DNA of 48,265 nt from Methanomassiliicoccus sp. (GTDB lineage Archaea; Thermoplasmatota; Thermoplasmata; Methanomassiliicoccales; Methanomassiliicoccaceae): contig JADFDJ010000016.1 of assembly GCA_018262895.1 (NCBI GenBank), positions 1 to 48,265 on the forward strand. The letters are read 5' to 3'. The stretch's first letter is position 1, and every line of letters begins with the position of its first letter. Below, one piece after another: positions 386 to 17,622 of this stretch. The position numbers and the translations under genes are program-made. Below the pieces are notes generated by a model. The model saw only the letters and a program-made list of their open reading frames with translations, was not told the origin of the DNA and searched no databases.

Positions 386-631
386 TGACCTATCTCCTTT
401 CTAAGCAACTGGCAATAGGTCAGACCACACTTATTTATTTTGATAACAGTATTGGTAACAGACCATAATTATATGTCAGAAGCTGTCAACTGACTTTTGC
501 AACAAGACCTATAAAAAGTACTGGCTGCCCAATATGATGTTGTCCACCTTTGAGGTTTTAACACAGCGACCCTAACCTCTCGTTGATGGGTGAGATCAGC
601 ATTATCTGACCGATGATAGGTGATTATTATG
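386..631. other. non-coding stretch between transposase and cheR
   Basis: No convincing frame is present. The stretch is more AT-rich than its surroundings, especially 425-520. An AT-rich run at 429-441 (minus strand, TATA-like) lies about 45-55 bp before the transposase GTG and could be its promoter. A TATA-like CTATAAAAAG near 510 faces rightward but no gene follows it. The outer inverted repeat of the insertion sequence should lie here but cannot be set without the other end. Confidence 0.4.
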
Positions 632-1465
632 TTATTCAACGATCTTTTGGTACACCCTTTCCCGGCTCTTTATGGAGGTCAGATGCCTAGTGGCCTCCCC
701 GACCAAGGTCTCGGTGTTGCCCATGATGAAATATCCATCCGGGTTTAGGGCCTTGTAGAACTTCATGTAGAGGCGTTCCTGCATGTCCTTGGTGAAGTAG
801 ATGACGACGTTGCGGCAGAGGATCACATCATAACCGGTACCCGCGGTGGAGGAGAACAGGTCCACGTTCTTGAACTCCACCATGTCCATGATCTCAGGGC
901 ATACCTGGTACATCTGACCATCGAAGCTGAAATATTTTTCGAGGTATGGTTTGGGGACATTGACAACCTGGCGTGGTAGATACCTGCCCTCCCGCGCAGC
1001 CATAAGGCACTCCTCATCGATGTCGCTGCCTACTATAGATATTGTAAAAGAGTCAAACTCCTCCCCCAGGAGCTCCCTCAGAATGATGGCGATGGAGTAA
1101 GGCTCCTCCCCGCTGGAACAGCCAGCGCTCCATATCCTTATCCGGGGAGTGTTCTTGATGACCTTACGGTAGATCATAAGAGGGAAGAGCTCGTCCTCTA
1201 TCGCCTTGAAGACCGGTATGTCCCTGAAGAACTGAGTGACATTGATGGTGAGGTCCCTCATGAGCTCCTCGCACTCATCCCTGTTCGAGCATAGTAAGGA
1301 AGAATAATCAGAATACCTCTGAAGGCCGTGGGCCCTCATCCTGACCCCGAAGCGGCGCTGCAGGTAAGGGTCCTTGTATTGGTTGCAGTCTAAGGATGTC
1401 TTCTTGAATATGGTGTTCTTAAGGGCTATGAAATCCTTATCGGTGCAAACCTTCTCGACTGACAT
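632..1465 (-). CDS. cheR: chemotaxis protein methyltransferase CheR
   Basis: CheR transfers methyl groups from S-adenosylmethionine to receptor glutamates during sensory adaptation, opposing CheB. The 277-residue length is normal. Residues 8-80 are the helical N-terminal domain. NVTQFFRD (75-82) is the conserved Arg/Phe box that precedes the methyltransferase fold. WSAGCSSGEEPYS (112-124) is the SAM-binding loop, DID (148-150) the acidic residues expected to bind the ribose, and CRNVVIYF (217-224) the conserved CRN-IYF motif. No extra beta-subdomain insertion or TPR tail is seen. It is transcribed away from the receptor gene; a TATA-like AATATATTTATT at 1494-1505 lies about 30-40 bp before the ATG and no clear ribosome binding site is present, so the leader is short or absent. 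The product should act on the receptor encoded at 1678-4653. Confidence 0.97.
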   Translation of the reverse strand: MSVEKVCTDKDFIALKNTIFKKTSLDCNQYKDPYLQRRFGVRMRAHGLQRYSDYSSLLCSNRDECEELMRDLTINVTQFFRDIPVFKAIEDELFPLMIYRKVIKNTPRIRIWSAGCSSGEEPYSIAIILRELLGEEFDSFTISIVGSDIDEECLMAAREGRYLPRQVVNVPKPYLEKYFSFDGQMYQVCPEIMDMVEFKNVDLFSSTAGTGYDVILCRNVVIYFTKDMQERLYMKFYKALNPDGYFIMGNTETLVGEATRHLTSIKSRERVYQKIVE

Positions 1466-1677
1466 TGATTATAACCATCAGAATAAACTTAATAAATATA
1501 TTAGCTTCTTAATAATCAGGGATGATAAATACTATGATGCCAGCATCATTTCTCTCGTTTTTTTTCCCGTAATCACAGACGATAGCAAGCTCTTAACGCA
1601 TAAATACTCATCAATTTTTTCATTTCTATAAAATTGAGCTCATCATCAGAGCATCAGCAATCTTTGGAGGAGACACT
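1466..1677. promoter_or_regulatory. divergent promoter region cheR / receptor
   Basis: This AT-rich 212 bp stretch separates cheR (leftward) from the rightward chemotaxis run. The leftward TATA-like box is at 1494-1505. For the rightward genes, CATAAATAC near 1600 or CTATAAAAT near 1626 could serve, followed by a strong ribosome binding site (GGAGGAG, 1665-1671) 6 nt before the receptor ATG. Which rightward box is used is not resolved. Confidence 0.5.
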
Positions 1678-4653
1678 ATGGACGCACAATCTGAAGGGTC
1701 TGTGAGCGAACAGATGGTCGCCGCGATGCCTATGGCCGCTTATGTTGCAGATGAGAATACGAAGATCACGTTCTTCAATAAGGGCGCCGAGGAGCTGACG
1801 GGAATCGCCGCCAGCGAGGCCGTTGGGATGAGGGTCCGGGACGTATTCAACGGCTCTCTGGGAAGAAAGGGGTGCCCGGTGTACGACGCCATGGCAGAGG
1901 GTAAATCAGTGAACGACGTAGAGGTCAAGTTCGAGGACAGCCACGAGAACGAGGTGGCTTGCCTCGTCTCCGCCACGCCCCTTCTGAAGAACGGAAAGCG
2001 TGGCGGATCCATGTGTTTCCTTAGAAAGATCGAGAAGCAGAACGGTGCAGCCTTCGACTACCTCAACAGCCTGCCCATCCCCATCCTGGTGATGGACAAG
2101 AGCTTCAAGATCTCCTACATGAACGGAGCCGCCTTGCGGACCGTTGGCAAGTCCTTGGACCAGGTCAAGGGCAAGCCCTGCTATGAGTTCATGAACACCA
2201 ACAAGTGCAAGGACGGTAACTGCGCCACCCGAAGGGCCATGAGCGAAGACAAGGTCCTCATCGGCGATGCCGTCGCCCACCTCCCCACAGGCGACCTGCC
2301 GGTTCGAGGGATGGTGGGGCCCCTGAAGGATTCCCAGGGGAACGTCGTGGGCGCCGTGGAGGTGCTCATGGACATCAGCAAGGAGACGGAGATAACCAAG
2401 GAGGCCCTCAGGCTGGTCGACGCGACCCTGGCCGGAGATCTCAAGGCTCGGGCCGATGCCTCCAAGTTCGAGGGTAACTACCGTTCCATAGTATTGGCCC
2501 TCAACGGCTGTCTGCAGGCCCTCACCAACCCCATGATCACCGCCGCTGCTTCCATAGAGAAGATCGCCAGGGGAGATCTCTCCCAGAAGATCGAGGCCGA
2601 GTTCAAGGGGGACATGAACACCCTGAAGAACAACATCAACGCGTGCATCGAGAACATCGGTGCCATGGTGGATGATGCCAACATGCTGACCATGGCGGCA
2701 GCGAAGGGAGAGTTCTCCAAGCGCGCTGACCTGTCAAGGCATCAGGGAGAGTACCAGCAGATAATCGCCGGCGTCAACAAGACCCTGGATGTGGTTGTGG
2801 AGAAGATGTTCTGGTACGAGCAGATCCTTGATGCCGTGCCCTTCCCCCTGTCCGTTACCGACATGGACATGAACATGACCTACCTCAATAACTCCTCCAT
2901 CAAGATCCTGAAGAAGGACCGCAAGGACCTCATCGGCAAGCCCTGCCACGAGTGGAACGGACCCATATGCAGAACCAAGAACTGCGGTATCGTCCGGTTC
3001 AGGCAGGGAGAGTGCAGCACCACCTCTGATAGAGATGGAAAGGCCCTCCAGGTCGATGTGAGCTACATTCGGAACGCCAAGGGAGAGCCCATCGGGCACG
3101 TCGAGGTCATCCAGGACGCGACGGCAAAGGTCCGCGAGGCCAAGTTCCGTCAGTCTGAGTTCGCAAAGGTAACGCATAACATGGCCCTCATGGCCGAGGG
3201 CAATCTGAACTTCGAGGCCGACATCGCCGAGGCTGACGAGTACACCAAGGCCGTTCATCAGATGTACGTCGACCTCAACAACAGCGTGATGCAGGTCCGG
3301 GACTCCATCAAGGCGCTTGTCGATGACACCAAGATGCTGGCCCTCGCCGGCGTAGATGGCCGCCTGGAGACCAGGGCCGACGCCTCCAAGCACAAAGGCG
3401 AGTACCGCAACATCGTCCAAGGCGTGAACAACACCCTCGATGCGGTCATAGTGCCTATAAACGAAGCGATGAGGATTGCCGACTCCTACGCGAACGGGGA
3501 CCTCACCGCCAGGTTCGCCATCGAGACCAAGGGTGACTTCACGAAGTTCGCTAACTCCCTAGATTCTATAGGCGAGAACCTCACCAGCCTGCTCAAGGAG
3601 GTCAACAACTCCATCGAGACCGTTTCGGCCACGTCGCAGGAGCTCGCCTCCTCCGCAGAGGAGATGAACGCCTCCACCGAGCAGGTGTCGGCGGCCATCC
3701 AGCAGATCAGCAAGGGCGCGCAGAGCCAGGCCGCGCAGGTCGATGAGACCGCCAAGATCATGGCCAACATGTCGACCTCCGTCATCCAGGTCGTGGACAA
3801 GACCCAGTCCGCTACCACCTCCGCCAAGAAGGGTGAGGAGAGCGCTGCTAGGGGCAAGGGCGCGGTCGACAACACCGTAAAGAAGATGCAGGAGATAGCC
3901 AAGGTGGTGGAGGAGTCCGCCAAGGTCATAGAGACCCTGGGCAAGCGGTCCGAGGAGATCGGAGAGATCGTCGGTGTGATCACCGGAATATCAGATCAGA
4001 CCAACCTACTCGCTCTGAACGCCGCCATCGAGGCCGCCAGGGCGGGAGAGCAGGGGCGTGGGTTCGCTGTCGTCGCCGAAGAGGTCAAGAACCTCGCCGA
4101 GGACAGCCGCGAGGCGGCCGAGCGCATCGCCAAGATGATCAAGGAGGTGCAGCTGGAGACCAACAAGGCCGTGGAGGCCATGAAGGTCGGGACCAAGACC
4201 GCCGCCGAAGGCATCCAGATAGTAGACCAGACCGGTGCGGCCTTCCAGGACATCCTGCAGGCCGTCGTCCATTCGTCCACGGAGATGAAGGCCATCGCTA
4301 GCCTCATGGACAGCCAGAAGGAGGGCACGCAGACCGCCGCCAAGGCCGTGGACGGCATCGCCTCCATAGCTGAGGAGACAGCCTCCGCGTCCGAGGAGTC
4401 CGCCTCCTCCACCGAGGAGCTGACGGCGAGCATGGAGGACATGACCGCCCGGGCCCAGTCCCTCTCCGAGATGGCCATCAACCTCAAGAAGATGACCGCT
4501 CAGTTCAAGATAGACGAGTTCCAGGCGCAGGCCGAGACCGAGGCCGCGCCCGTCCAAGCGAAGAGGATGGAAAAGAAGAAGGCCTCCTCGGACGCCAAGG
4601 TCCCCTCCAAGGTCAGGGAAGCCCTTGCCAAGAGAGGGATAGAAGCGATCTGA
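1678..4653 (+). CDS. soluble methyl-accepting chemotaxis protein, PAS and HAMP repeats
   Basis: A 991-residue chemoreceptor with no transmembrane segment, so probably a cytoplasmic sensor of redox, energy or a diffusible ligand. Three PAS-like domains lie at about 10-115, 125-235 and 380-485. HAMP-like repeats, each with an R/K-AD-S-hydrophobic pattern, fill about 240-375 and 490-630. The C-terminal half is the signalling coiled coil, with the hairpin tip [18 protein letters not shown] starting near residue 767 and the conserved segments after it. PAS2 and PAS3 each hold a cysteine triad (C168/C177/C182 and C423/C431/C436, plus C446), which suggests a metal, heme or thiol redox sensor; that is inference. 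Heptads rich in E, Q and A either side of the tip provide likely methylation sites. It heads the operon with cheW, and a good Shine-Dalgarno sequence supports the ATG. Confidence 0.95.
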
Positions 4654-4666
4654 AGGAGGAGATCCC

Positions 4667-5212
4667 ATGGCCCGTAAGAAGCGAGAGAAGGTGGAGATAT
4701 CCGGGGACGAAGAGCAGATCGTCTCCTTCAAGCTAGGCAAGGAGACCTTCGCCGTCAACGTCTCACAGGTCCGCGAGATCGGCAAGGTCGAGGACATCAC
4801 CCGGATACCGAAGATGCCGGACTTCATCGAGGGCGTCATGAACCTCCGCGGTCAGATCACCACCGTGATCGACCTCAAGAAGAGGTTCGGCATCCCCGCC
4901 GGCACGGGCCGTACCGCTCAATCCCGGATCATCGTCGCCGAGATAGGCGACAGCCAGCTGGGTATAATCGTGGACGCGGTAGAGGATGTCAAGCGCATCT
5001 CGCGCAGCAACATATCCCCCCCGCCCAAGACCCTCAGCGCCGGGGTGGAGGCGAACTCCCTCACTGGCATATGTAAGCTTGGGGACAAACTAGTAATGAT
5101 GCTTGACCTCGGATGTATCATGTCCGAGGGTGAGAAGGCAAGACTGGGCATCGGCGAGGCCGCGCCCCATACGACATCTAATGCGATGGCAACAGCAGAG
5201 GTATCAAAATGA
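4667..5212 (+). CDS. cheW: chemotaxis coupling protein CheW
   Basis: CheW bridges the receptor tip and the P5 domain of CheA. This 181-residue protein has a short basic N-terminal tail, then the double SH3-like fold from about residue 17 to 150. The family hallmark is at about 59-71 (MNLRGQITTVIDL), preceded by a proline-rich RIPKMP loop and followed by LGIIVDAVEDV. A short C-terminal tail rich in A, T and S follows and looks unstructured. It starts 13 nt after the receptor stop, with GGAGGAG just upstream. Its stop overlaps the cheY start (ATGA, 5209-5212), so the two are translationally coupled. Confidence 0.97.
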   Translation: MARKKREKVEISGDEEQIVSFKLGKETFAVNVSQVREIGKVEDITRIPKMPDFIEGVMNLRGQITTVIDLKKRFGIPAGTGRTAQSRIIVAEIGDSQLGIIVDAVEDVKRISRSNISPPPKTLSAGVEANSLTGICKLGDKLVMMLDLGCIMSEGEKARLGIGEAAPHTTSNAMATAEVSK

Positions 5213-5577
5213 GCAACCCGAAGAAGGTAATGATCGTTGATGACTCGATGGTCATGAGAGCGATGATCAAGGACGTCCTGACCAAGGAAGGTTTCGAGGT
5301 CGTGGGACAGGCAAAGAACGGAAAGGAAGCGTTGGAGCAGTATCCCAAGCTGAACCCGGACCTGGTCACGATGGACATCATCATGCCCGGAGAGCATGGG
5401 ACCGACGTGGTCAAGAAGATGATAGAGCTCGACAAGGACGCCCGGATCATCATCGTCAGCGGACTGAACCAGAAGAACCTGGTCATGCAGGCCATGGACA
5501 ACGGCGCCAAGGAATTCCTCGTGAAACCGTTCGAGAACAAGGAACTGATCGAAGCAGCCATGAAGACCGCGAGATGA
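5209..5577 (+). CDS. cheY: chemotaxis response regulator CheY
   Basis: A stand-alone receiver domain of 122 residues. The acidic pair D11/D12, phospho-acceptor D56 (in LVTMDIIMP), S84 in place of the usual Thr/Ser, and K106 (in LVKPF) are all present, so it should be a working receiver. F108 follows K-P, where many CheY proteins carry an aromatic switch residue. In archaea phosphorylated CheY acts on the archaellum motor through CheF, which is not encoded in this window. The ATG lies inside the cheW stop overlap. cheB follows after 5 nt. The receiver domain of the next gene (cheB) is closely similar in sequence, suggesting a shared origin within the operon. Confidence 0.96.
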   Translation: MSNPKKVMIVDDSMVMRAMIKDVLTKEGFEVVGQAKNGKEALEQYPKLNPDLVTMDIIMPGEHGTDVVKKMIELDKDARIIIVSGLNQKNLVMQAMDNGAKEFLVKPFENKELIEAAMKTAR

Positions 5578-5582
5578 ACTAA

Positions 5583-6611
5583 TTGACCAAACATACTGTG
5601 CTTGTTGTCGACGACTCTATCGTGATGCGGCGCATCATCACCGACCTCCTGTCGTCCGATAAGGACCTGGAGGTGGTAGGCGCGGCCCGCAACGGGCTAG
5701 AGGCCTTGGAAAAGGTCCGCACCCTGAACCCGGACGTGGTCACGATGGACATCGAGATGCCCGTCATGGACGGGCTCACGTCGCTGCAGCACATTATGGC
5801 CGAGTTCCCGCGACCGGTGGTCATGCTCAGCTCCATGGACAAGCGGCAGGCCGACATTACCTTCAAGGCCCTTGAGATGGGAGCGGTGGAGTTCATTCCC
5901 AAGACCTCGGGGTCCCTGTCGCTGGACCTGGAGAGGGTGGGGGACACCATCGTGGAAAAGGTCAAGGCCGCCGCCCGAGCGAGGGTCCACCACTCACGTC
6001 CATCGGTCAGGAACATTCAACCTACCATCATCCCCACTCTGAGCGGGGACTGGGTGGTAGTAATAGGCTGCTCCACAGGAGGACCGAAGTCCCTTCCGGA
6101 GGTGCTCTCGCGGTTGCCGGGGAACCTGCCCGCGCCTGTGCTGGTGGTACAGCACATGCCTGAGGGGTTCACCAGGTCCTTCGCGGAGCGGCTCAACATG
6201 ATATCGCCCCTCGAGGTGAAGGAGGCCGAGGACGGGGAAGAGATCCACAAGGGCCATGTGTACCTTGCACCGGGCAACAGGCATCTACTGCTCAACGGCC
6301 GCAGGCTGTTGCTGGACGACGGGCCCAAGGTGAACTACGTTCGTCCCGCGGTGGACGTGCTGATGAACACGGTCGCGCCCATATACGGTCCCAGGACGGT
6401 CGGTGTGATACTGACGGGGATGGGCTCGGACGGAGCGGAAGGGATGAAGCTCATCAAGCGCAACGGCGGCAAGACCGTCGTTCAGAACGAAGAGACATGC
6501 GTGGTCTACGGCATGCCCAAGGCTGTTGTGGACCTCGGGGCGGCGGACCGCATAGTCCCGCTGGAAGATATCGCCAAGAACATCGTACTTATGCTTAGCA
6601 CGGGGATGTAA
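5583..6611 (+). CDS. cheB: chemotaxis methylesterase/deamidase CheB (TTG start)
   Basis: CheB removes receptor methyl groups and deamidates receptor glutamines when phosphorylated by CheA. The 342-residue protein has an N-terminal receiver (D10/D11, D56 phospho-acceptor, K107) and a C-terminal esterase domain from about 155. The catalytic triad is visible: S164 in GCSTGGP, H191 in VVQHMPEGF, D283 in GMGSDGA. The only start that keeps the first receiver strand is TTG at 5583; the ATG at 5574 is out of frame and stops at once. Use of TTG and a weak ribosome binding site 5 nt after the cheY stop suggests lower translation than its neighbours or coupling by re-initiation. Confidence 0.96.
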   Translation: MTKHTVLVVDDSIVMRRIITDLLSSDKDLEVVGAARNGLEALEKVRTLNPDVVTMDIEMPVMDGLTSLQHIMAEFPRPVVMLSSMDKRQADITFKALEMGAVEFIPKTSGSLSLDLERVGDTIVEKVKAAARARVHHSRPSVRNIQPTIIPTLSGDWVVVIGCSTGGPKSLPEVLSRLPGNLPAPVLVVQHMPEGFTRSFAERLNMISPLEVKEAEDGEEIHKGHVYLAPGNRHLLLNGRRLLLDDGPKVNYVRPAVDVLMNTVAPIYGPRTVGVILTGMGSDGAEGMKLIKRNGGKTVVQNEETCVVYGMPKAVVDLGAADRIVPLEDIAKNIVLMLSTGM

Positions 6612-6612
6612 C

Positions 6613-8577
6613 ATGGACAGCTCAAAATATATTGACGTTTTCATCGAGGAGACCCGGGACCAGCTCCAGACGGTCAACAGCGTGCTGCTGAGCCTCGAGG
6701 AGAGCGGCTTCAACGAAGAGCAGATGAACGAGGCCTTCCGCGTGGTCCACACCGTTAAGGGATCGGCGGGGGTCATCGGCGTCAGCCATATCTGCGAGCT
6801 GGCCCACATCATGGAGGACCTCTTTGATATCCTGCGCAAGCGGAAGGAGGTGCCTGAGAAGTCCATGATCCAGCTTCTCTTCACTGGCGTGGACAAGATA
6901 GAGAAGATGCTGACCCAGCTGGAGAAGGACGGGACCACCCACCTTGACGTGACGGAACTCATCGCCAAGATGAAGCAGGCCCGTGACAGCACCAGTGCCG
7001 CTGCCAAGCCCACGGCGGACAAGGCCAAGGAGATCAACACCATCCAGATACTGCCGGTCCAGAGGACCCAGGTAGAAGAGGCCGTAGCCCAGGGCAAGAG
7101 ACCAGTGCAGGTCAAGATCACATTCTCTCCCGAGCTCAGGTTCAGGGAGGGGCGCGCCTACCAGGCGGTGCGCAACCTTTCCAATGTAGGCATGGTCGCC
7201 GCAAGCCAGCCTTCGGTCACGGACATGCCGGACGATACACCCTTCTTCCTCAATCTGCTCCTCACCGACAAGAGCGATGAGATGATCATACAATCGGTGA
7301 ACGGGGTCACGGGGGTGGCCCTGGTCGAGGTGGCACCATGGACGATGAACGTCGCCGCTCCGGCAACGACGGAGGCGAAGTGCGAGGTCAAGGAAGAGGC
7401 CTCCGGTGCCGAGGACAAGTCATCGTCGGGGCTATCCACTGCATCCACCATACGCGTCCGCAGCAAGCTGCTCGACCAGCTGCTGGACCTTGTGGGTGAG
7501 ATAGTCATAAACAACATCCGCGTCAATCAGATCGCCATCGACCTTAAGCACCGCGAGCTCAAGCAGACCCTGCAGAACAACACCCGCCTTATGGGGGAGA
7601 TGCAGGACGTGGTGCTGCGGACCAGGATGGTCCAGGTCGACTTCATATTCAAGCGCTTCCCCCGCATCGTGAGGGACCTGGCCCAGGCCAACAACAAGGA
7701 GATCGAGTTCCTCATGCGCGGCACCGACATCGAGATCGACCGCAGCCTGCTGGACGAGATCGGTGATGCCCTGGTGCACCTCCTCCGGAACGCCGTTGAC
7801 CACGGCATAGAGGAGAAACAGGACCGCATCGCCAAGGGCAAGAAGCCCCAGGGCACCATCATACTGTCCGCCTTCCAGGAGCAGGGGAACGTGGTCATTA
7901 CCGTCGAGGACGACGGAAAGGGAATGGACATTAAGAAGATCACCGCCAAGGCCGTCTCCAAGGGCCTCATAAGCGCCGATGAGGCGGAGCGCATGGACGA
8001 CCGGTCCAAGATGCAGTTCATATTCCTGCCCGGCTTCAGCACCGCGGACAAGATCAGCGACCTCTCCGGAAGGGGAGTGGGCATGGACGTGGTGAAGACA
8101 AAGATCGAGGGGCTGGGAGGAACGGTCCGACTGGACTCCACCTACGGTAAGGGAAGCAAGATCACGCTCAAGCTGCCGCCCAGCATGTCCATCATACGGG
8201 CCATGCTGGTGGAGGTGAACTCGGAGAAGTACGCCATCCCCCTGGAGAACGTCAGAGAGACGGTGAGGGTGCCGATGGAAGCTGTCCACACCATTGCAGA
8301 CAATGGGGTGTTCAAGCTGCGGAACGAGGTACTGCCGATACTGAACATCCATAACGAGTTCGGTGGCAGCAGCGAGGTCGTCCGGGAGATGCCGGCGATC
8401 ATCGTGGAGAAGAACGAGAACCGGGCATGCCTGCTGGTGTCCCGTTTGATAGGTCAGCAGGAGATAGTGGTGAAGAACTTAGGGAAGGACCTGAGGCAGA
8501 CCGGGTACTTCTCGGGAGCGACCATCCTGGGAGATGGTAAGGTAGCTATGATCCTCGATGTGGGGGCTTTCATATGA
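6613..8577 (+). CDS. cheA: chemotaxis histidine kinase CheA
   Basis: The 654-residue kinase phosphorylates CheY and CheB in response to the receptor. P1 (1-120) has phospho-acceptor H46 in VVHTVKGSAG. P2 (about 155-245) begins near RPVQVKITFSPE and is the CheY/CheB docking domain. P3 (about 275-345) is the dimerisation helix pair. P4 is the ATPase: N-box HLLRNAVDHG at about 389-398, G1 box DDGKGMD near 436-442, and GRGVGMD near 486-492. P5 (about 520-654) is CheW-like. Linkers flanking P2 are rich in A, K, S and T. It starts 1 nt after the cheB stop, and its own stop overlaps the start of the first cheC (ATGA). All key residues are present. Confidence 0.97.
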   Translation: MDSSKYIDVFIEETRDQLQTVNSVLLSLEESGFNEEQMNEAFRVVHTVKGSAGVIGVSHICELAHIMEDLFDILRKRKEVPEKSMIQLLFTGVDKIEKMLTQLEKDGTTHLDVTELIAKMKQARDSTSAAAKPTADKAKEINTIQILPVQRTQVEEAVAQGKRPVQVKITFSPELRFREGRAYQAVRNLSNVGMVAASQPSVTDMPDDTPFFLNLLLTDKSDEMIIQSVNGVTGVALVEVAPWTMNVAAPATTEAKCEVKEEASGAEDKSSSGLSTASTIRVRSKLLDQLLDLVGEIVINNIRVNQIAIDLKHRELKQTLQNNTRLMGEMQDVVLRTRMVQVDFIFKRFPRIVRDLAQANNKEIEFLMRGTDIEIDRSLLDEIGDALVHLLRNAVDHGIEEKQDRIAKGKKPQGTIILSAFQEQGNVVITVEDDGKGMDIKKITAKAVSKGLISADEAERMDDRSKMQFIFLPGFSTADKISDLSGRGVGMDVVKTKIEGLGGTVRLDSTYGKGSKITLKLPPSMSIIRAMLVEVNSEKYAIPLENVRETVRVPMEAVHTIADNGVFKLRNEVLPILNIHNEFGGSSEVVREMPAIIVEKNENRACLLVSRLIGQQEIVVKNLGKDLRQTGYFSGATILGDGKVAMILDVGAFI

Positions 8578-9233
8578 GCACAGAAACGAACGAGATAGAG
8601 ATTGACGAACTGCAGATGGACGCTCTCAGGGAACTGGGCAATGTCGGGGCCTCTCACGCCTCCACTGCCCTGACCGAGCTGGTGAAGACCGACATCCTCA
8701 TCGATGTCACAGAATGCCGGGTACTTCCCATGGATTCCCTCCCCAACCGTTTCGGTGAACTGGGAACACATCTGGCCACTGTTAAGATCGAGATCGGCGA
8801 CAGCAAGAGCTGCCTGTACATGATCTTCCCGGAGAAGATCGCCACCTACCTATCGGACCTGCTCCTGGGACGTCCCCATGACCCCAACAGGGCCATGACC
8901 GAGGAGGACCACGAGGTGATGGTGGAGATGGGCGACATATGCATCCGCCGCTACCTCATACCCCTGTCCAAGTTCCTGTCCATTGACCTGATCCCCAACT
9001 CGCCCACGGTGTCCGTGGACAAGCTGGAGGACCGGTTGAAGTTCCCGGAGGTCCTCAAGCACCTCCACGAGTCCAAGGTCGTCAGGATCGAGACCAACTA
9101 CGTTGACAGCAACCAGAAGTTCCAGGGAGCCATCATCTACGTTCCCGATCCCAAGACCCAGAACCTCACCTTCAAGCGCTTTGGTGTGGACTCCGAGTCG
9201 CAGATGGCGACCTTCTCCAAGTTCGGGTTGTGA
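8574..9233 (+). CDS. cheC: CheC-family CheY-P phosphatase, second site altered
   Basis: CheC proteins dephosphorylate CheY-P and bind CheD. The fold is an internal repeat, each half bearing D/S-x3-E-x2-N. Here the first site is intact (D16, E20, N23, in DALRELGNVG). The second keeps E118 but has D121 in place of Asn (VEMGDIC); P144 lies at the expected spacing after it. The asparagine is needed for catalysis in studied members, so only the first site looks active. Length is 219 residues, slightly longer than the usual 200 because of a C-terminal extension. ATG overlaps the cheA stop. The next gene is a second cheC with the opposite defect, so the pair may act as a heterodimer; that is inference. 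Confidence 0.95.
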   Translation: MSTETNEIEIDELQMDALRELGNVGASHASTALTELVKTDILIDVTECRVLPMDSLPNRFGELGTHLATVKIEIGDSKSCLYMIFPEKIATYLSDLLLGRPHDPNRAMTEEDHEVMVEMGDICIRRYLIPLSKFLSIDLIPNSPTVSVDKLEDRLKFPEVLKHLHESKVVRIETNYVDSNQKFQGAIIYVPDPKTQNLTFKRFGVDSESQMATFSKFGL

Positions 9234-9859
9234 GCTCCTTGACCTTGACCGAGAGCCGGGAACAGAACGAGATGATCATGGACGGTCTCAGGGAGATCGG
9301 CACCATCGGCGCCGCTCATGCCTCCACCGCCCTCTCCGAGCTGGTGCACAAGGACATCATGATCGAGGTTTCGGACTGCTTCGTCTGCAGCACCCAGGAG
9401 CTGCCCACAGCGTTCTCCACCACCGAGGAGACGGTGGTCGCGGTGTTCCTCGAGGCCATCGGTAAGAGCAGAGGAGGGATCATGCTAGTGGTCAGCCAGA
9501 AGATGGCCATTGAACTGACGGACCTGGTCCTGGGGCGGGAGTACGACGAGAACCACTGCTTCGATGAGATGGACGCGGATGCCATATGTGAGATCGGCAA
9601 CATCTGTGCCTCTGCATATCTGAACGCGGTATCCCGCTTCACCAACATCACCATGATGCCCTCACCCCCTGGCGTGGCCGTGGACATGCTGCGGGCCATC
9701 CTGCAGTTCCCCGCCGCCCTGGTGGAGGCGGACTCCGACTCCTCCGTGGTGATCAAGACCATGTTCAAGTACGGCAAGAACGTGGGCTTTGGCTTCATGC
9801 TCTACATTCCAGACCGCGAATCCCAGCTGGTACTGATCGAAAAGTTCGGCTCGATGTGA
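9230..9859 (+). CDS. cheC: second CheC-family protein, first site altered (GTG start)
   Basis: A 209-residue paralogue of the preceding protein. The first repeat has D18 and E22 but T25 replaces the catalytic Asn (GLREIGTIGAAH). The second repeat is intact: D117, E121, N124 in AICEIGNICAS, with P147 at the expected spacing. This is the mirror image of the preceding CheC. GTG at 9230 overlaps the previous stop (GTGA), and no better start lies downstream before the conserved helix. Its own stop overlaps the cheD start in the same way. It should share partners with cheC1 (CheY-P and CheD). It could instead serve a CheX-like or regulatory role. Confidence 0.94.
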   Translation: MSSLTLTESREQNEMIMDGLREIGTIGAAHASTALSELVHKDIMIEVSDCFVCSTQELPTAFSTTEETVVAVFLEAIGKSRGGIMLVVSQKMAIELTDLVLGREYDENHCFDEMDADAICEIGNICASAYLNAVSRFTNITMMPSPPGVAVDMLRAILQFPAALVEADSDSSVVIKTMFKYGKNVGFGFMLYIPDRESQLVLIEKFGSM

Positions 9860-10443
9860 AAGTTATGATAGAACGAAGGGCCGAAGGCCTAGTAACAGAT
9901 GAGGATAAGAGGGTGACTCTCGCCCGCCGTGTCGACGAGGACCAGGTATGCCAGGCACACTACGTCGATGGGGATGCGGTGGTGGGCGTGGGCGAGTACC
10001 ATGTCGTGCACGCACCGGAGAAGCTGGTATGCCTAGGATTGGGATCCTGTGTGGGCATTGCCATCTTCGACCTTTCCACGCAGATAGGTGGTCTCATTCA
10101 TGCCATGCTTCCAAAGTACGAGGAGGGAAGGGACAAGACCAACGCTTCCAAGTACGCGGATTCTGCGATCATGCTCATGGTCGACGAGCTGGTAGAAATG
10201 GGAGCCCGCAAGCCCCTGCTGAAGGCCAAGATCGCGGGGGGTGCCCAGATGTTCTCTTTCATCTCATCGGACACGCTCAACATCGGGCTGAGGAACTCTG
10301 CGGTCGCCAAGGAGACCCTCAAGAAGGAGAACATACCCCTACTGGCTGAGGACGTGGGAGGCACCAAAGGCCGGACCATCTTCTTCAACTCCTCCGATGG
10401 GAGCATACGCATCCAGAAGAACGGAGAGGTCAGCCAGATCTGA
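9856..10443 (+). CDS. cheD: chemoreceptor glutamine deamidase CheD (GTG start)
   Basis: CheD deamidates receptor glutamines and is bound and controlled by CheC. The catalytic triad is visible: C65 in LGLGSCVGIAIFD, H82 in GGLIHAMLP, T95 in DKTNASKYA. The 195-residue length includes an N-terminal extension of about 40 residues, charged and without a clear fold, before the usual start of the family near residue 45. GTG at 9856 overlaps the second cheC stop; an in-frame ATG at 9865 is an alternative. It is the last gene of the run and is followed by T-rich DNA, then by the converging end of arlJ. Confidence 0.95.
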   Translation: MKVMIERRAEGLVTDEDKRVTLARRVDEDQVCQAHYVDGDAVVGVGEYHVVHAPEKLVCLGLGSCVGIAIFDLSTQIGGLIHAMLPKYEEGRDKTNASKYADSAIMLMVDELVEMGARKPLLKAKIAGGAQMFSFISSDTLNIGLRNSAVAKETLKKENIPLLAEDVGGTKGRTIFFNSSDGSIRIQKNGEVSQI

Positions 10444-10614
10444 TCTCCCAACCTTTTTCATCAATTATCCCTGCTTTTTTATTAATTTTTCCCCTTTCCT
10501 GGAGCGTCCATGGAATATTAGGCGGTTAGAACAAGCGCTCCTGCCTACAGGTCCATGTGAACGATGACCCCATCTCCGTGCTCGAAAATGGACATTCTGA
10601 CTAAGGATGATATC
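10444..10614. terminator. convergent intergenic region with T-rich tracts
   Basis: Between the 3' ends of cheD (rightward) and arlJ (leftward). On the plus strand three T-rich runs occur within 10453-10495 with no stem-loop, which matches archaeal T-tract termination of the chemotaxis transcript. No matching T tract is obvious for the leftward transcript in this stretch. Confidence 0.5.
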
Positions 10615-12297
10615 TCAACTGCCGCCCATCAGTCCGCCGATCATCATCTGGGCCATGAATCCACCCACCGAGCCGATCCACATCATGGCGATGAAATGGA
10701 TGATCGATCCCGCCAGATGACCTCCTTTCAGCATGGGGAGCATGATGGAGGAGAACAACGCGTGAATGAAGATCACGCAGAAGGTCATCAGCTCTATGCC
10801 TGCCGTAGAGTACGAGGCCGAAAATATATTTGTGAGGAAACCACCGGAAACGAAGTCGGGATTGCTCACGGCCAGATCACCCATCACCTGACCCATGTAG
10901 TCAACTATGCCGACCGTCACATAGAGGGTGACCGACAGGGACACCATTATGCCGTAGAGCAGGCCGACGAAGGACGAGCCGATCGTCTGGCGGCGCTTCC
11001 TTATCGTTAGGACCTTGAACATGTTGTTGCTGATGAAAATGCTCGTCGCCTCAGGCTTGGAACCGTTCTGGATGCACAGGACGTACATCTCCCCGAACCT
11101 TTCGATGAGGCTGCTGGAGGTCTCCGCCGAGAAGTGCCTCCAGGACTCCGTGGCATTGATGTGCATGGCCAGCCTCTTGGAGAGGTTCTTGATCATGTCG
11201 GTCAGCGGCCCGAACTTGTGCATTGCCAGCTTTTTCACGCCATCCGCCATGGTGGTGCCGCTCACCTCCGATGAACGGCCGAGGGAACGGATGAAGGCCC
11301 CGTACAGGTTGTCCCTCTTCTCTATCTTCCTCTCCTCCCGCATGATGAGGACCCCTGGGAACAGAGCGGGAAGGAATATGGTCGACGCGACGAAGGTCAG
11401 GGGGAAGCCCGAGGGCAGCATCACGAACGACAGGAGGATTATCCCGAATATCGCGACCAGCGTGGCCGTGAAGATCATGCGGTCGGTATCATTGATCAGT
11501 CCTCGTTTCATCTTGACCCGCCAACCGTACCAAATGCACTCCTTGGGCAGCTTGGTCTTGAGGAAGAAGATGAAGAACGCCTCCATGGCCACGAAGGACG
11601 CCACCACGCCGAACAGGAGCATGTCGATGTCGGTGCCTCCCAGCACAGGGGTGATGGCCACGAACACGGCGGTGAAGATGAGGGATGTGGTGATTCCCGT
11701 GTAGATGTCCTTGACGAACTCCAGGTCCTTGAGGGCGGAATCGGACTTGAGTATGAACTCGTCCATCATGACGTCGTGCTCGTTCTTCATGAACCGGTCA
11801 AGCTTCTCACCGACGTCCAGCGAGTGGGACAGCCTCTGGAAGAAGTCGCCCTCCAGCTGGCTGGAGGTCCTCTGGGCAACGAAACGGCAGGCCTCGGCCG
11901 CGCCCACGCTATAGTGCTTCAGAAGGCGATAGACCTGCTTGGCATCCTCGGCCAGCTGTCCGAACTCCTTCTTCTCGGACAGGATGTAGAACACCTTGTC
12001 GAAGGACATGTCGGACGTGGACAACGCCGCCATGGTGGTCACGAACATAGGCATGTTGCTGTCCACGTTGGTCTTCCGCTTGCCGGTGTACACGGCAGGC
12101 AGAAGGAGGATGACGATGACCGCGAAGATGGGAAGGACGTACATTATGTAGATGGTGGGGGACCCCACGATGTCCGCCAGCAGCAGGGTCATCATCATGG
12201 GGACGACCAGGCCGAACATCACCACTGAGATAAGCACCAGCCGGAAGTAGGCCTCCTTGCTCATCTTGAGGTCGCGCAGCCAAACGTCGATCTTCAT
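10615..12297 (-). CDS. arlJ: archaellum membrane platform protein ArlJ (FlaJ)
   Basis: ArlJ is the polytopic membrane platform on which the archaellum filament is assembled and rotated by ArlI. The 560-residue protein has paired N-terminal membrane segments (about 18-68), a cytoplasmic T2SSF domain with the conserved acidic and basic helices (about 90-195), a membrane block (about 205-245 and 275-325), a second T2SSF domain (about 340-430) and C-terminal membrane segments (about 440-555). The size and two-fold repeat are typical. It is the last gene of the operon, starting 9 nt after the arlI stop. The final 20 residues are rich in Gly and Met. Confidence 0.95.
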   Translation of the reverse strand: MKIDVWLRDLKMSKEAYFRLVLISVVMFGLVVPMMMTLLLADIVGSPTIYIMYVLPIFAVIVILLLPAVYTGKRKTNVDSNMPMFVTTMAALSTSDMSFDKVFYILSEKKEFGQLAEDAKQVYRLLKHYSVGAAEACRFVAQRTSSQLEGDFFQRLSHSLDVGEKLDRFMKNEHDVMMDEFILKSDSALKDLEFVKDIYTGITTSLIFTAVFVAITPVLGGTDIDMLLFGVVASFVAMEAFFIFFLKTKLPKECIWYGWRVKMKRGLINDTDRMIFTATLVAIFGIILLSFVMLPSGFPLTFVASTIFLPALFPGVLIMREERKIEKRDNLYGAFIRSLGRSSEVSGTTMADGVKKLAMHKFGPLTDMIKNLSKRLAMHINATESWRHFSAETSSSLIERFGEMYVLCIQNGSKPEATSIFISNNMFKVLTIRKRRQTIGSSFVGLLYGIMVSLSVTLYVTVGIVDYMGQVMGDLAVSNPDFVSGGFLTNIFSASYSTAGIELMTFCVIFIHALFSSIMLPMLKGGHLAGSIIHFIAMMWIGSVGGFMAQMMIGGLMGGS

Positions 12298-12306
12298 TGG
12301 TCCGCC

Positions 12307-13953
12307 TCATACCGTGAACGGTAGGGAATTCGGGCCATACTCGTAGTAGTCGCTTAAAATCTTGTTGACCTCATGATATCCTGTGATATCCAGGTCCACC
12401 ATCTTTTGGATGATCTTCTCCCTCTGTCGCAGGTCCTTGTAGATGTCCTTTGGCTCGCTGTAACCGTGCTCAGCGGCGATCCTCTTCTCCAGGATGTAGC
12501 TGTTGTTGTTGCCGCGGAAGTAGAGCTTGTCTGTGGCCGAATCCCACTTGAAGACGTTCCTGGTCAGAACGCCCCCGTCCTCCTTGGAGTATCCCATGAA
12601 CTCCTCCACGTTGGTCACTCGCCTCAGGAACCTGCGGTTGACGTTGACCGCGGACTGGAATATGATCACGTTGACGTTGTCGATGAAAGACATGGGGATG
12701 TTGATCGGCTGCCCGGTCATTCTCTGGATGAACTTGGTGGCGTTGGAGGCGTGGAAGGTGGCCATGACCGGGATACCGGTCTGCATGCATTGGAAGGCGA
12801 CACGTCCCTCCTCACCTCTGATCTCACCGATGACGATGTAGTCCGGACGCGACCTCAGGGCCGCACGCAAGAGATCGAACATCGTGACCCTGGCCTCCTC
12901 CGGACCCGATTCCCTGGTGACGCAGCGCTGCCACCCCTTCTGGGGAGGCTTGACCTCTGGAGTATCCTCGACGGAGTAGATCTTTCCGCGGTGGTCGATG
13001 AAGGACAGGATGGCGTTGAGAGCAGTGGTCTTTCCGGACGCGGTCTCTCCGGAGAGGATGACGTTCATCTTGTTCTCCAGGCACAGCCATATGTACGCCA
13101 CGAACTCGGGGGAGAAGGTACCGAACTTGATGAGCTGGATAGGCGAGATGGGCTCGGCGCTGAACTTACGGATGGTACAGGACGAGCCCCTGGCGCTGAT
13201 GTCGTTGGAGTAGATCATGTTGATACGGGACCCGTCCGGCAGCGTTCCGTCGACGATGGGCTTGGACGCGCTGACCGGCCGGCCCATGCGCTCGGAGATG
13301 GAGATGAAGAACTCGTTGAGGGAGACGTCATCATCGAACCTCACGTTCGTCTCCAGACCGTATTGGAACGCCTTGTGGGATACCCTGACCTTTCCCGTAC
13401 CTATGAGGTGAACATCCTCGATGTACGGATCAAGGATGAGAGGCTCGATGGGCCCATAACCGACAATATCCCTATTGATATAGTATTTTAGGATCTCGTA
13501 CTCCTTTTGGTTGACCTGGACCTTGCCGCTGGTCTTCTTGGCCTTCTTGTTCCTGCCGCTCACAACCTCCACGGACATGTCGAAGAGCTTCTCCAGGATA
13601 CGTATCAGGTCCTCCTTGGTCTCCACGGACTCCTCGTGCGTGGCCTTTTCCAAGATGGAATCCTTGATTATGCGGAGCTTTTCCTTCTCCTCCATGTCCA
13701 ACTTGTGCTCTATGCTCACATAGCGTGAGCGCAGGGCATCGATATGGATGTGGCCGTTACCTATCTTGTAGATGACGTTCGCTGAATTGGGGTCAAGTAT
13801 GGCGTTCTTCCTGATCTCCGCGAGGTCCTTCACCGAGAGGTTCTCATAGTACTTCGGAAGGATGTTGGTGACCTTCTGCAGCTCATCGATGTACTCGCGA
13901 AGGTATATGTTCCCCTTGGCCGCCTTTTCCAGGGCAGGATCTATGACGACCAT
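12307..13953 (-). CDS. arlI: archaellum motor ATPase ArlI (FlaI)
   Basis: A hexameric secretion-type ATPase that powers both filament assembly and rotation. The 548-residue protein has an N-terminal domain (1-260) and a RecA-like domain. Walker A is near 299-308 (SGETASGKTT), the Walker B-type motif is in YIVIGEIRGEEGR near 371-383, and the histidine box is in ATFHASNATKF. All catalytic residues are present. Its ATG overlaps the arlH stop by 1 nt, and arlJ follows after 9 nt. A second, divergent ATPase of this superfamily lies at 37686-39413; only this one sits in an archaellum operon. Confidence 0.96.
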   Translation of the reverse strand: MVVIDPALEKAAKGNIYLREYIDELQKVTNILPKYYENLSVKDLAEIRKNAILDPNSANVIYKIGNGHIHIDALRSRYVSIEHKLDMEEKEKLRIIKDSILEKATHEESVETKEDLIRILEKLFDMSVEVVSGRNKKAKKTSGKVQVNQKEYEILKYYINRDIVGYGPIEPLILDPYIEDVHLIGTGKVRVSHKAFQYGLETNVRFDDDVSLNEFFISISERMGRPVSASKPIVDGTLPDGSRINMIYSNDISARGSSCTIRKFSAEPISPIQLIKFGTFSPEFVAYIWLCLENKMNVILSGETASGKTTALNAILSFIDHRGKIYSVEDTPEVKPPQKGWQRCVTRESGPEEARVTMFDLLRAALRSRPDYIVIGEIRGEEGRVAFQCMQTGIPVMATFHASNATKFIQRMTGQPINIPMSFIDNVNVIIFQSAVNVNRRFLRRVTNVEEFMGYSKEDGGVLTRNVFKWDSATDKLYFRGNNNSYILEKRIAAEHGYSEPKDIYKDLRQREKIIQKMVDLDITGYHEVNKILSDYYEYGPNSLPFTV

Positions 13954-14675
13954 TAACCAGACACCTCCGTGATCTCGATCACCAAGCCAATGCCTGGCTC
14001 GATCCTGATCTTCATCTGGTCATCGACCTTGTGCTTGGCCCTCTGGTACCTCATGATGTTGACCATGCGCACCATTCCCTGGCCGGACGGCTTCATTTTG
14101 ATGGACATGTAGATGTCCGACGCCTGGCGGAGGGGATCGACGGCCTTGCAGGTCTCATCGGTGGTCATCAGGATGGTCTTATCGAGCTTCATCTGCTTCT
14201 TGAGGAAGCCCATGTACTGGATGCAGTTGCGCTCGTCCAGGCTATCCTTGGTAAGAGTGGAGAAGGAATCTATGATGAGGACGTCCTTGCTGTACAGCTG
14301 AGGGGAGGTCATCAGCTTGAGCAGGAAGTCGCTCCGGTTGCGGGATTTTCCCAGCAGGGGGTAGACGGGGAAGTACTGGAATGCGCCGCTGAGCAGGTAC
14401 TTGTCGACCTTGTACTCCAGGGAGTACATCTGGTCTATGAAGTCCCGCATGGTCATTTCCGTGCTCACGTAGGTGGCGGTATGCCCGTTCGCGAGGAGCC
14501 CGTAAAGGATGCGCTGGCTGAGAACGCTCCTTCCTGAACCTTCCCCTCCTTCGATGAGCATGGTGCTCCCCCGGGGTATTCCACCCCCCATCTTGAGGGC
14601 CAGCTCGTCCTGTTTGAGATGAATGCTGTATAGGTCCTGACGAGCTGCACCGGCCTCCAGTAATGCTCCGCTCAT
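13953..14675 (-). CDS. arlH: archaellum ATP-binding protein ArlH (FlaH)
   Basis: ArlH is a KaiC/RecA-like protein that forms a ring beneath ArlI/ArlJ. Nucleotide binding, rather than strong hydrolysis, is thought to control that contact. The 240-residue protein shows a Walker A loop at 43-50 (GGEGSGRS) in which R49 replaces the invariant lysine, and a Walker B at 132-136 (VLIID). The Lys-to-Arg change is directly seen in the codon AGG. It may weaken ATP hydrolysis while keeping phosphate contact; this is inference. The start has GAGGTGAG just upstream. It lies between arlG (35 nt gap) and arlI (1 nt overlap). Confidence 0.95.
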   Translation of the reverse strand: MSGALLEAGAARQDLYSIHLKQDELALKMGGGIPRGSTMLIEGGEGSGRSVLSQRILYGLLANGHTATYVSTEMTMRDFIDQMYSLEYKVDKYLLSGAFQYFPVYPLLGKSRNRSDFLLKLMTSPQLYSKDVLIIDSFSTLTKDSLDERNCIQYMGFLKKQMKLDKTILMTTDETCKAVDPLRQASDIYMSIKMKPSGQGMVRMVNIMRYQRAKHKVDDQMKIRIEPGIGLVIEITEVSG

Positions 14676-14710
14676 CCCTCATCTCACCTCGTACGCTCAT
14701 CAATGTTCCA

Positions 14711-15148
14711 TCAGATGCGGAAGGACATAGTATCGGACACGGCGTTGGGCATGACCGCCTTGATCTCGTGGTCCCCAGCGTTTAGTGCCACCACTATATG
14801 CATCTCCACAGTCTTTCCGACAACCCATAAGCCGCCGGTATATTCGTTCACTACGGACGTCTCATTGACGTACTGGCCATCTATAAGGATTGCGATGTTA
14901 TTATATTTTAAAGTAATATCACCCACGTTCTTCAGATATATCGTGAGATTACCGTCAGCGTAAGGAACCCTTCTGGGATCGTTCACGATCTCGATGTCCG
15001 TGCCTATCTCCGTCTCCAGGGCGTTGGTCTTGACCTTGAGCTCCTGCACCATGGAGTTGGAGATGCCGATGATGACCCCCGACACCGAGACCGCTACCAC
15101 TATGGCAGCGATGAAGAACAGCGAGTGGGTGAACGAACTGTCGGCCAT
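14711..15148 (-). CDS. arlG: archaellum stator protein ArlG (FlaG)
   Basis: A 145-residue protein with one N-terminal membrane helix (about 9-30) and an outward-facing beta-sandwich domain. ArlF and ArlG form the pseudo-periplasmic stator that anchors the motor to the S-layer. The segment after the helix (SNSMVQELKVKTNALETEI) is typical of the family, as are the beta-rich pieces LTIYLKNVGD and IAILIDGQYV. Two likely N-glycosylation sequons occur (NLT, NET). It is 9 nt after arlF and 35 nt before arlH, which supports the assignment. Confidence 0.9.
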   Translation of the reverse strand: MADSSFTHSLFFIAAIVVAVSVSGVIIGISNSMVQELKVKTNALETEIGTDIEIVNDPRRVPYADGNLTIYLKNVGDITLKYNNIAILIDGQYVNETSVVNEYTGGLWVVGKTVEMHIVVALNAGDHEIKAVMPNAVSDTMSFRI

Positions 15149-15157
15149 GTTCGTGCC

Positions 15158-15574
15158 TCAGTGATAGGCGGCCACGCCATTGGCGTCCACCACTCGGATG
15201 AGGGTGTCGTTCAAACTGACGTTGACAGTGATGACCAAGGTCTCCAGGGGGAACCAGATGTTGGTGCTGGTGCTGCCGTCCACGGACGTCGATACTATGG
15301 CGTCGCCGCTGAGCGTTCCGTTCAGGAACAGATCGAGAGAGCTGATGGATAAGGTCTCGGTGCCCTCATTGAGGAGGGTCACGGTGCGGTTCTCAGCATC
15401 CACTGCGGTTATGGATATGCGATCATGCAGGACCCCGTCCTGGCGGTCCTGAGACTCTCTCCGCGCATCGACCAGGGCCTGTTCGAAATTATCGAACGCT
15501 GCGAGGAGGTTGCTGAACACGATGACCGATGCGACGAAGATAATGGCAGCAGAAGCTGAGATGCTCAGCCCCAT
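15158..15574 (-). CDS. arlF: archaellum stator protein ArlF (FlaF)
   Basis: A 138-residue protein with an N-terminal membrane helix (about 5-28, beginning MGLSISASAAIIFVAS) and an extracellular beta-sandwich containing TVTLLNEGTETLSISSLDLF, a pattern shared by ArlF proteins. In the family it forms a dimer that binds the S-layer and, with ArlG, makes up the stator. The ATG overlaps the end of the arlC/D/E gene by 1 nt (TGATG), so the two are coupled. Sequons NRT, NGT and NVS are present. Position between arlC/D/E and arlG is the canonical order. Confidence 0.9.
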   Translation of the reverse strand: MGLSISASAAIIFVASVIVFSNLLAAFDNFEQALVDARRESQDRQDGVLHDRISITAVDAENRTVTLLNEGTETLSISSLDLFLNGTLSGDAIVSTSVDGSTSTNIWFPLETLVITVNVSLNDTLIRVVDANGVAAYH

Positions 15575-16593
15575 CAGCCGCCCCCTAGGCGCTTGAACTC
15601 GCTCATCCAGCGGTCCAGAGCCTCCACCTCGTCCCGGTCCAGATCTTCCCCGACGAGCTTGGCGCGATACACCTTGCTGAGCTGGTACTCCACCAGCTTA
15701 TGTACCTGCTCCAATGCATAGGGGTCTACAGTGGACGGCATCGAGGAAGGCGTTCTTGCCTGCGGTTTCGAGGGAACGTCGTCCTCCGGTTCCGGGGTCG
15801 CGATGGGCGTCGGAGCCCTCAGGTCGACCTTCCCCAGCACATCCGGTGAGATCTTGATGCTATCCATCCCCTGGATGCTGCCGAAATTCTCCTCCTCTTC
15901 CTCGTCGTCCGGTCTCACCACCCGGTCCAGGGGACCGCAATCATCGACAACGGGAGACGTCATGGTCTTTGCCTCCTTGAGCGTACTAAGGCTTCCCAGG
16001 GAGAGGTTGCCCTCCATGGGAACGTTATCTTCGCCCGCGGACAGGGCGACAGCATCACGCTTGTCATCCTCCACGAACGGGTTGTACTGCCGGCTGACCG
16101 CCTCGTACACGTTCAGCAGGCTCTTGATTGAGTTGTTGATCTCGGACAGGTCCTTCTTCATGGACTCTATCTCGTTCTTCGTAGCTTTGCTGGTGAGATC
16201 TGCGGTCTCCGCCTGCTTCTTTAGGTCGTTGACGCTGGCCTCGATCTCCATGAACTTCTTGTCATCGGCACGGCCCCCGCCCGAGGACAGGCTGGAAAGG
16301 ATATCGTCGCCCAGGCCACCGCCCAGGCTGCCCCCTATGCTTCCGCCGAGACTGCCGAGATCGCCGATCTCGTCCTTTCCCTTCTTCTTGTCCTTCTTGT
16401 CTCCTAGCTTGGAGAGGCTGCCGAGGCTTCCTCCAAGGTCGCTGAGGGACAGGCTTCCGCCCTCCAGGCCAAGGTCGTCCGAGGAGGCGGAGATGCCTCC
16501 CAGGTCGGAGCCCTTGCCGCCCTTCTTCTTGAACGACAGGATGGCCAGGGTCGAGACCAACGGATTGATGGGAACGTTGCGGACAGCCTTCAT
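15574..16593 (-). CDS. arlCE: archaellum switch-ring protein, ArlC/D/E type fusion
   Basis: ArlC/D/E proteins form the cytoplasmic ring that receives the CheF/CheY-P signal and sets rotation direction. The 339-residue protein begins with a short hydrophobic piece, then a low-complexity stretch (about 22-105) of Gly, Ser, Leu, Lys and Asp. A coiled coil follows (about 110-165, with KKDLSEINNSIKSLLNVYEA) and the family signature YEAVSRQYNPFV. After an acidic, proline-rich linker comes the C-terminal ArlD/E domain (about 290-339, ending in LDRWMSEFKRL). It therefore combines the ArlC-like and ArlD/E-like parts in one chain. AGAGGT lies 7 nt before the ATG. Confidence 0.88.
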   Translation of the reverse strand: MKAVRNVPINPLVSTLAILSFKKKGGKGSDLGGISASSDDLGLEGGSLSLSDLGGSLGSLSKLGDKKDKKKGKDEIGDLGSLGGSIGGSLGGGLGDDILSSLSSGGGRADDKKFMEIEASVNDLKKQAETADLTSKATKNEIESMKKDLSEINNSIKSLLNVYEAVSRQYNPFVEDDKRDAVALSAGEDNVPMEGNLSLGSLSTLKEAKTMTSPVVDDCGPLDRVVRPDDEEEEENFGSIQGMDSIKISPDVLGKVDLRAPTPIATPEPEDDVPSKPQARTPSSMPSTVDPYALEQVHKLVEYQLSKVYRAKLVGEDLDRDEVEALDRWMSEFKRLGGG

Positions 16594-16665
16594 CTGGATA
16601 CCTCTGGATAGTGATGTTGTGAAACTGGTGATATGAGCGATCGTGATGGTTGATGTGTGGTGTTT

Positions 16666-16713
16666 AAGATAATAAAAAGAAAGGAGTTTATTACCCTGTT
16701 TAGTTCAGGGTAA
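16666..16713 (-). terminator. hairpin plus T-rich run after archaellin gene
   Basis: On the minus strand, TTACCCTG, a 7 nt loop and CAGGGTAA form a perfect 8 bp stem (16691-16713). The archaellin stop codon TAA sits within the loop. A T-rich stretch follows (16690 down to about 16666). The arrangement looks like a terminator or an RNA 3'-end stabiliser between the archaellin gene and the assembly genes. It would let archaellin mRNA accumulate above the downstream operon. Confidence 0.6.
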
Positions 16714-17329: not shown

Positions 17330-17353
17330 TTCTAGACCTCCATTCGGTTCTTG

Positions 17354-17388: not shown

Positions 17389-17454
17389 ACGCTTCGTCTG
17401 CATAGATTGCAACGGGCTACCATCCTAGGGATGTAGCTCGCTCTCATCAGGCAG

Positions 17455-17486: not shown

Positions 17487-17622
17487 AGAAAAGATTTGAA
17501 AATCATAACTGATTTGTATTTTTGATTCCCAGAAATATTAATTATCAAATAAAACTATGAGATCATCTAACATAGCCAGTTCACCCTCGCGCTTATCATT
17601 ATCTGTACTTCTTTCATCTTAT

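Follow-up and report, generated by a model that had tools for sequence, protein, structure and literature searches.

Two adjacent CheC paralogues with mirror-image site changes

The DNA analysed here, referred to as the window, is a stretch of 48,265 nucleotides (nt) from Methanomassiliicoccus sp. that carries a chemotaxis operon on its plus strand in the order cheW-cheY-cheB-cheA-cheC1-cheC2-cheD. We focus on cheC1 and cheC2, which are the only CheC genes found in the source genome (2.34 Mb, 99.7% complete). CheC-type phosphatases are usually depicted with two equivalent sites. The canonical two-site form has an ExxN motif in each of its repeats, but CheC1 and CheC2 have one ExxN each, with ExxD at site 2 of CheC1 and ExxT at site 1 of CheC2. 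An earlier, sequence-only reading of this DNA had placed E20/N23 and E118/D121 in CheC1 and E22/T25 and E121/N124 in CheC2. Our translation agrees with it, giving ALRE20LGN23VGASHAST and MVE118MGD121ICIRRYL for CheC1 and LRE22IGT25IGAAHAST and ICE121IGN124ICASAYL for CheC2. The 4-nt overlap of the two genes reported in the same reading lies at 9230-9233, where the stop codon of cheC1 overlaps the GTG start codon of cheC2.

Both proteins score above the cut-off of the Pfam CheC family (PF04509, 22 bits), CheC2 with 46.2 bits and CheC1 with 25.2 bits through its first repeat only, and both match Thermotoga maritima CheC along their length. The likeness to canonical two-site CheC (T. maritima CheC, PDB 1XKR/2F9Z; Bacillus CheC) is closest for CheC2, which matches nearly over its full length (phmmer, 1.6e-20) and has in common with it the two-repeat layout, the cheC-cheD gene order and the Asp of the CheD interface (Bacillus D149). 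CheC2 differs from the canonical form by the Thr at site 1, whereas CheC1 differs by Asp and Arg at site 2 and by a C-terminal tail. D152 of CheC2 and D149 of CheC1 both align with Bacillus D149, the numbering of which was fixed using a CheC/CheX-type plasmid match from Bacillus velezensis. Assignment to the related phosphatases of the same fold family fits less well: CheC2 reaches 26.8 bits with the CheX profile (PF13690, cut-off 27 bits) and CheC1 has no match, PF04509 being the better profile, and T. maritima FliY (4HYN) matches either protein less strongly. Unlike FliY, neither protein has a match to the FliN-type domain, and the cheD-adjacent context is typical of CheC.

Phylogeny places the two changes at different ages

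Whole-genome searches were run at three ranks (order, 147 genomes; class, 400; phylum, 390), and CheC was present in a minority of the genomes. All CheC1 orthologues found belong to Methanomassiliicoccales (16 proteins from 15 genomes); the CheC2 clade comprises 20 proteins, and CheCs other than CheC1 number 58. The closest named relative found with the CheC2 query, in the class Thermoplasmata, is Methanomassiliicoccales archaeon PtaU1.Bin030, the CheC2 of which is 96% identical. CheC was not found in a scan of viral contigs, and a plasmid search for CheC1 relatives returned bacterial CheC/CheX only.

In a tree of 73 CheC proteins, built after removal of both Asn columns, the CheC1 clade (support 100/100) and the CheC2 clade of the order (98/96) are sisters, and parsimony on this tree counts nine changes at site 1 and one at site 2. 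D121 therefore dates to the base of CheC1 and T25 to the base of a three-genome subclade. As reconstructed from this phylogeny, cheC1 and cheC2 are old paralogues, duplicated within the Methanomassiliicoccales CheC lineage, and the mirror-image pattern is the product of one ancient and one recent event that were independent, not a matched pair. A very divergent CheC-like protein encoded beside arlJ in genome G033 (L041, 2473-3156), in which Gln and Lys replace the two Glu residues, joins CheC1 at the end of a very long branch and was excluded from the CheC1 counts.

D121 (codon GAC or GAT) and T25 (codon ACC throughout) are identical in the three closest genomes and are therefore not sequencing errors. 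Both cheC1 and cheC2 are under purifying selection among these genomes, with ratios of nonsynonymous to synonymous substitution rates (dN/dS; NG86, whole genes) of 0.05-0.19, and pairwise dN/dS calculated by gene half showed neither half to be relaxed. Sequencing error or a pseudogene is ruled out by the same residues in three genomes together with the low dN/dS.

CheC1 has a fixed motif at site 2 and site 1 of CheC2 varies

Asp occupies site 2 in every CheC1 protein, and Asn occupies site 1 in all but one, the exception being CheC1 of G054a, which has Ser at site 1 and in which neither site is thus intact. R125, present throughout CheC1, occurs in 0/58 of the other CheCs, where Ser, Cys, Gly or Ala stands instead. 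Eight residues of this region (E118, G120, D121, C123, I124, R125, Y127 and P130) are invariant in the CheC1 alignment A1, the members of which range down to 41% identity with CheC1 of the window, and the resulting consensus at site 2 is ExGDxCIRxYxxP. The fixed GDxCIR motif appears to be new within our searches, which among the archaeal phyla covered Thermoplasmatota. In addition, CheC1 has a conserved tail that runs for about 15 residues past G204, whereas most other CheCs stop 0-5 residues past the G204 position.

The CheC2 clade presents the opposite picture: site 2 is Asn in 20/20 proteins, while site 1 is Asn in 15/20 and Thr in 3/20, with Ser in the G009 protein and in one of the two CheC2-type proteins of G042. 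The CheCs examined from outside the order always have Asn at site 2, whereas at site 1 Asn is replaced here and there by Ser, Thr or Cys. The two CheC sites of Thermoplasmatota hence evolve unequally, with site 2 near-invariant and site 1 replaceable, and the CheC1 clade reverses that. Tandem arrays of three CheC genes were seen in other settings: in G619 (L138, 1-2400) Ser or Cys stands in place of the site-1 Asn, with site 2 intact, and in G461, G503 and G521 (L130, L131 and L132) the three genes lie between cheA and cheD and all have both ExxN motifs intact.

The two losses do not pair up across genomes

The sequence-only reading had suggested a heterodimer in which each subunit carries a single active site and had proposed to see whether the paired pattern is conserved in relatives. 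The full pattern is confined to G000 (the window genome), G003 and G004, three close relatives among the 15 CheC1 genomes, with a variant bearing Ser in one of the two CheC2-type copies of G042. The remaining CheC1 genomes combine a D121 CheC1 with a CheC2 in which both sites are intact. Site 1 is replaced in 4/19 non-CheC1 CheCs from genomes that have CheC1 and in 7/37 from genomes that do not (Fisher p=1.0; the proteins are not independent), and since three of the four cases in CheC1 genomes are one event, the association can only be weaker than these counts. Replacement of the Asn with no correlation between paralogues, which the earlier reading had itself named as evidence against pairing, is thus what is observed at site 1.

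Individual genomes point the same way. In G009 (99% complete) cheC2 directly follows cheA (L037, 5163-8202) and encodes the sole CheC, whose first site is ExxS and whose second is ExxN; CheC1 was not found anywhere in that genome. In G027 (L034, 9678-10373) and G054 (L035, 4207-4944) cheC1 comes directly after cheB, with a receptor gene between it and cheC2. The lack of correlation, the state of G009 and the separated cheC1 of G027 and G054a together argue that selection is not preserving a heterodimer to which each subunit must contribute a site, and the proposal finds no support. A complementary pattern in a single genome should accordingly not be read as co-evolution.

A probable division of roles between CheC1 and CheC2

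CheC and CheX require both the Glu and the Asn (PMC3510030). The HisKA phosphatases share an E/DxxT/N motif, in which the catalytic residue may be Thr or Asn. In CrdS, a member of this group, N375T retained partial activity while N375D had none that was significant (PMC3510030). By analogy with these CrdS results, site 2 of CheC1 is probably inactive and site 1 of CheC2 is probably partly active. R125 follows D121 by four residues on the expected helix, and we therefore propose that an i,i+4 salt bridge between the two may shut site 2 of CheC1 to phosphorylated CheY (CheY-P), which is a reasonable suggestion from helix spacing.

For Bacillus subtilis CheC, the D149K exchange abolished CheD binding and chemotaxis and left phosphatase activity normal (PMC3513319). 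The equivalent Asp is present in 50/58 of the non-CheC1 CheCs, the next residue being in most cases M or L. Among CheC1 proteins 12/16 have it, in most cases with R, K or E as the next residue, and it has been lost in several members of family f3. The conservation of the Asp and the nature of its neighbours point to CheD as a partner of CheC2 and suggest a weaker or different relation to CheD for CheC1. The split between phosphatase and CheD-control roles that had been offered as the second option in the sequence-only reading thus survives in modified form, in that CheC2 keeps site 2 as well as the D149-type Asp, and CheC1 is the protein that has been rebuilt and has diverged.

We hold an ancient split of roles to be the probable explanation, in which CheC2 would be the canonical, CheD-linked CheY-P phosphatase and CheC1 a converted form that has one site, a CheD interface that has diverged and a new tail. 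CheC1 would have lost its second phosphatase site once and permanently, when Asn121 changed to Asp and the residue a helix turn further along to Arg125, and would have retained site 1 and gained the conserved C-terminal tail. It may act as a one-sided phosphatase or reader of CheY-P (or of phosphorylated CheB, CheB-P) that works largely apart from CheD. CheC2 would be the CheC of the adaptation loop, dephosphorylating CheY-P mainly at site 2 and binding CheD via its D152 surface; its site 1 would have drifted to ExxT recently, within the subclade of the window, and probably retains reduced activity.

That archaeal CheCs may divide their labour is already a known idea. Halobacterium salinarum likewise has several CheC paralogues with different partners in one archaeal system: CheC1 interacts with CheB and CheC2, CheC2 with CheD and CheF, and CheC3 with CheD (PMC3579733). 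CheC1 and CheC2 of that species are single-domain proteins and cheC2 lies elsewhere in the genome, whereas the proteins described here have two repeats and are encoded side by side. The position of cheC1 beside cheB in G027 and G054 recalls the CheC1-CheB interaction of Hbt. salinarum.

Several points weigh against a split of roles as we propose it. The retention of the D149-equivalent Asp in 12/16 CheC1 proteins makes CheD binding by CheC1 possible, and in Hbt. salinarum CheC1 and CheC2 physically interact, even though the authors of that study argue against stable CheC1-CheC2 heterodimers (PMC3579733). The HisKA proteins used for comparison have a different fold. Helix spacing is the basis of the proposed salt bridge, the available models being too poor for a check: AlphaFold2 models built from an alignment of four sequences, taken from the window and related loci, reached a predicted local distance difference test (pLDDT) score of 54 for CheC1 and 50 for CheC2, no residue-level claim was drawn from them, and the CheC1 model retrieved FliM/FliY-type folds in Foldseek without significance. 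The branch order of G009 relative to the window clade is weak (79/9), so that their site-1 changes could be one event. Finally, the activities, the salt bridge and the partners are deduced, next to a phylogeny, a residue conservation and a lack of correlation that are directly observed. The value of the pair lies in the natural experiment it offers for telling apart phosphatase action, CheY-P sensing and CheD control.

Alternative explanations

It is possible, though we rather doubt it, that ExxT is a working substitute and that CheC2 still has two active sites, an explanation that overlaps with the split of roles and differs from it in degree. The use of either Thr or Asn by HisKA proteins and the partial activity of CrdS N375T compared with N375D are in its favour, as is the finding that the three closest genomes show no change at E22 or in the helix around it. 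CheC and CheX themselves, however, need Glu together with Asn, and the occurrence of Ser and Cys at the same position elsewhere looks like relaxed constraint.

Simple decay, in which both altered sites would be neutral leftovers of post-duplication redundancy with no new function, is unlikely. Site 1 varies freely in many CheCs, as its nine changes on the tree attest, and the phosphatase activity of B. subtilis CheC plays a minor role in chemotaxis (PMC3513319). Decay would fit T25, but not CheC1, in which the eight invariant residues and the exclusive R125 amount to one specific new motif that has been kept, which argues against a decaying site.

A very unlikely reading is that CheC1 is mainly an adaptor that reads CheY-P for the archaellum, is no longer chiefly a phosphatase and replaces a missing CheF. 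CheF is regarded as the protein that connects CheY-P with the archaellum. It was not detected with PF04283 in the window genome and 13 other Methanomassiliicoccales, nor with a same-phylum CheF profile in 11 Methanomassiliicoccales, and canonical ArlD/E (PF04659) was not found in 12, although diverged versions of either may lie below detection (the genomes concerned are G000, G001, G003, G005, G006, G009, G010, G012, G027, G033, G040, G042, G046 and G054, each covered by one or more of the profiles). CheF has been described in almost all archaeal che regions (PMC2666748). These absences, the conserved new tail, the rebuilt site and the lack of both Asn residues in G054a CheC1 would suit an adaptor. 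Against it, single-CheC relatives outside the order (family f8) have neither CheF nor CheC1, so the absence of CheF is older than or independent of CheC1, and G009 lost CheC1 and kept its che operon. We give correspondingly little credence to the broader proposal that CheC1 is a new Methanomassiliicoccales CheC subfamily, one phosphatase site of which was remade as a fixed ExGDxCIRxY surface and which gained a tail for docking, and that it serves as CheY-P reader or adaptor and links chemotaxis to the archaellum in archaea apparently without CheF and recognisable ArlD/E. With CheF apparently lacking from these archaea, which bear an archaellum and a che operon, how the CheY-P signal reaches the motor in this group becomes a testable question. 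The family of G461, G503 and G521, elsewhere in the phylum, does have CheF and ArlD/E, and the window contains a FlaC-like domain at 15574-16593.

Least probable of all is a co-evolved heterodimer in which CheC1 gives site 1, CheC2 gives site 2 and each subunit dropped its redundant site: the adjacent, overlapping genes, the exact complementarity in three genomes and the CheC1-CheC2 association of Hbt. salinarum would fit it, but the mostly two-site CheC2 partners, the equal frequency of site-1 change without CheC1, the altered site 1 of G009, the G054a CheC1 and the separated genes all stand against it.

Genomic neighbourhood

The positions of the che genes and of the segments discussed above are collected in Table 1.

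Table 1. Positions in the window of the che genes and of the CheC segments discussed in the text
Feature	Position	Strand	Remarks
cheR	632-1465		one of the genes of the che/archaellum cluster
Receptor gene	1678-4653	+	precedes cheW
cheW	4667-5212	+	operon member
cheY	5209-5577	+	operon member
cheB	5583-6611	+	operon member
cheA	6613-8577	+	immediately upstream of cheC1, 4-nt overlap
cheC1	8574-9233	+	219 amino acids; site 1 intact (E20, N23), site 2 rebuilt (E118, D121, R125), C-terminal tail
CheC1 site 1, codons E20-N23 (ExxN)	8631-8642	+	N in 15/16 CheC1 proteins
CheC1 converted site 2, codons E118-R126 (EMGDICIRR)	8925-8951	+	D121 and R125 in 16/16 CheC1 proteins
CheC1 C-terminal tail, V205-L219	9186-9230	+	V205, D206, K216 and F217 invariant
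cheC2	9230-9859	+	209 amino acids, GTG start; canonical-type CheC; site 1 E22/T25, site 2 E121/N124
CheC2 site 1, codons E22-T25 (ExxT)	9293-9304	+	Thr within the order only in G000 (window genome), G003 and G004
CheC2 site 2, codons E121-N124 (ExxN)	9590-9601	+	Asn in 58/58 non-CheC1 CheCs
CheC2 D152 codon	9683-9685	+	aligned with Bacillus CheC D149, CheD interface
cheD	9856-10443	+	immediately downstream, 4-nt overlap with cheC2; PF03975, 114 bits

The che operon is faced by archaellum genes on the minus strand, namely arlJ, arlI, arlH, two flagellin-fold genes at the arlF/arlG position and an arlC-like gene. The che and archaellum genes together form a cluster within 1-18500. Near this cluster, at 20547-22673, lies a gene for a histidine kinase with an N-terminal seven-transmembrane region (PF16927), PAS and HATPase domains. 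A 2022 survey described Candidatus Thermoplasmatota as being without a chemotaxis system (PMC9680633); contrary to that statement, the window shows a complete che operon at 4667-10443 in a Thermoplasmatota genome.

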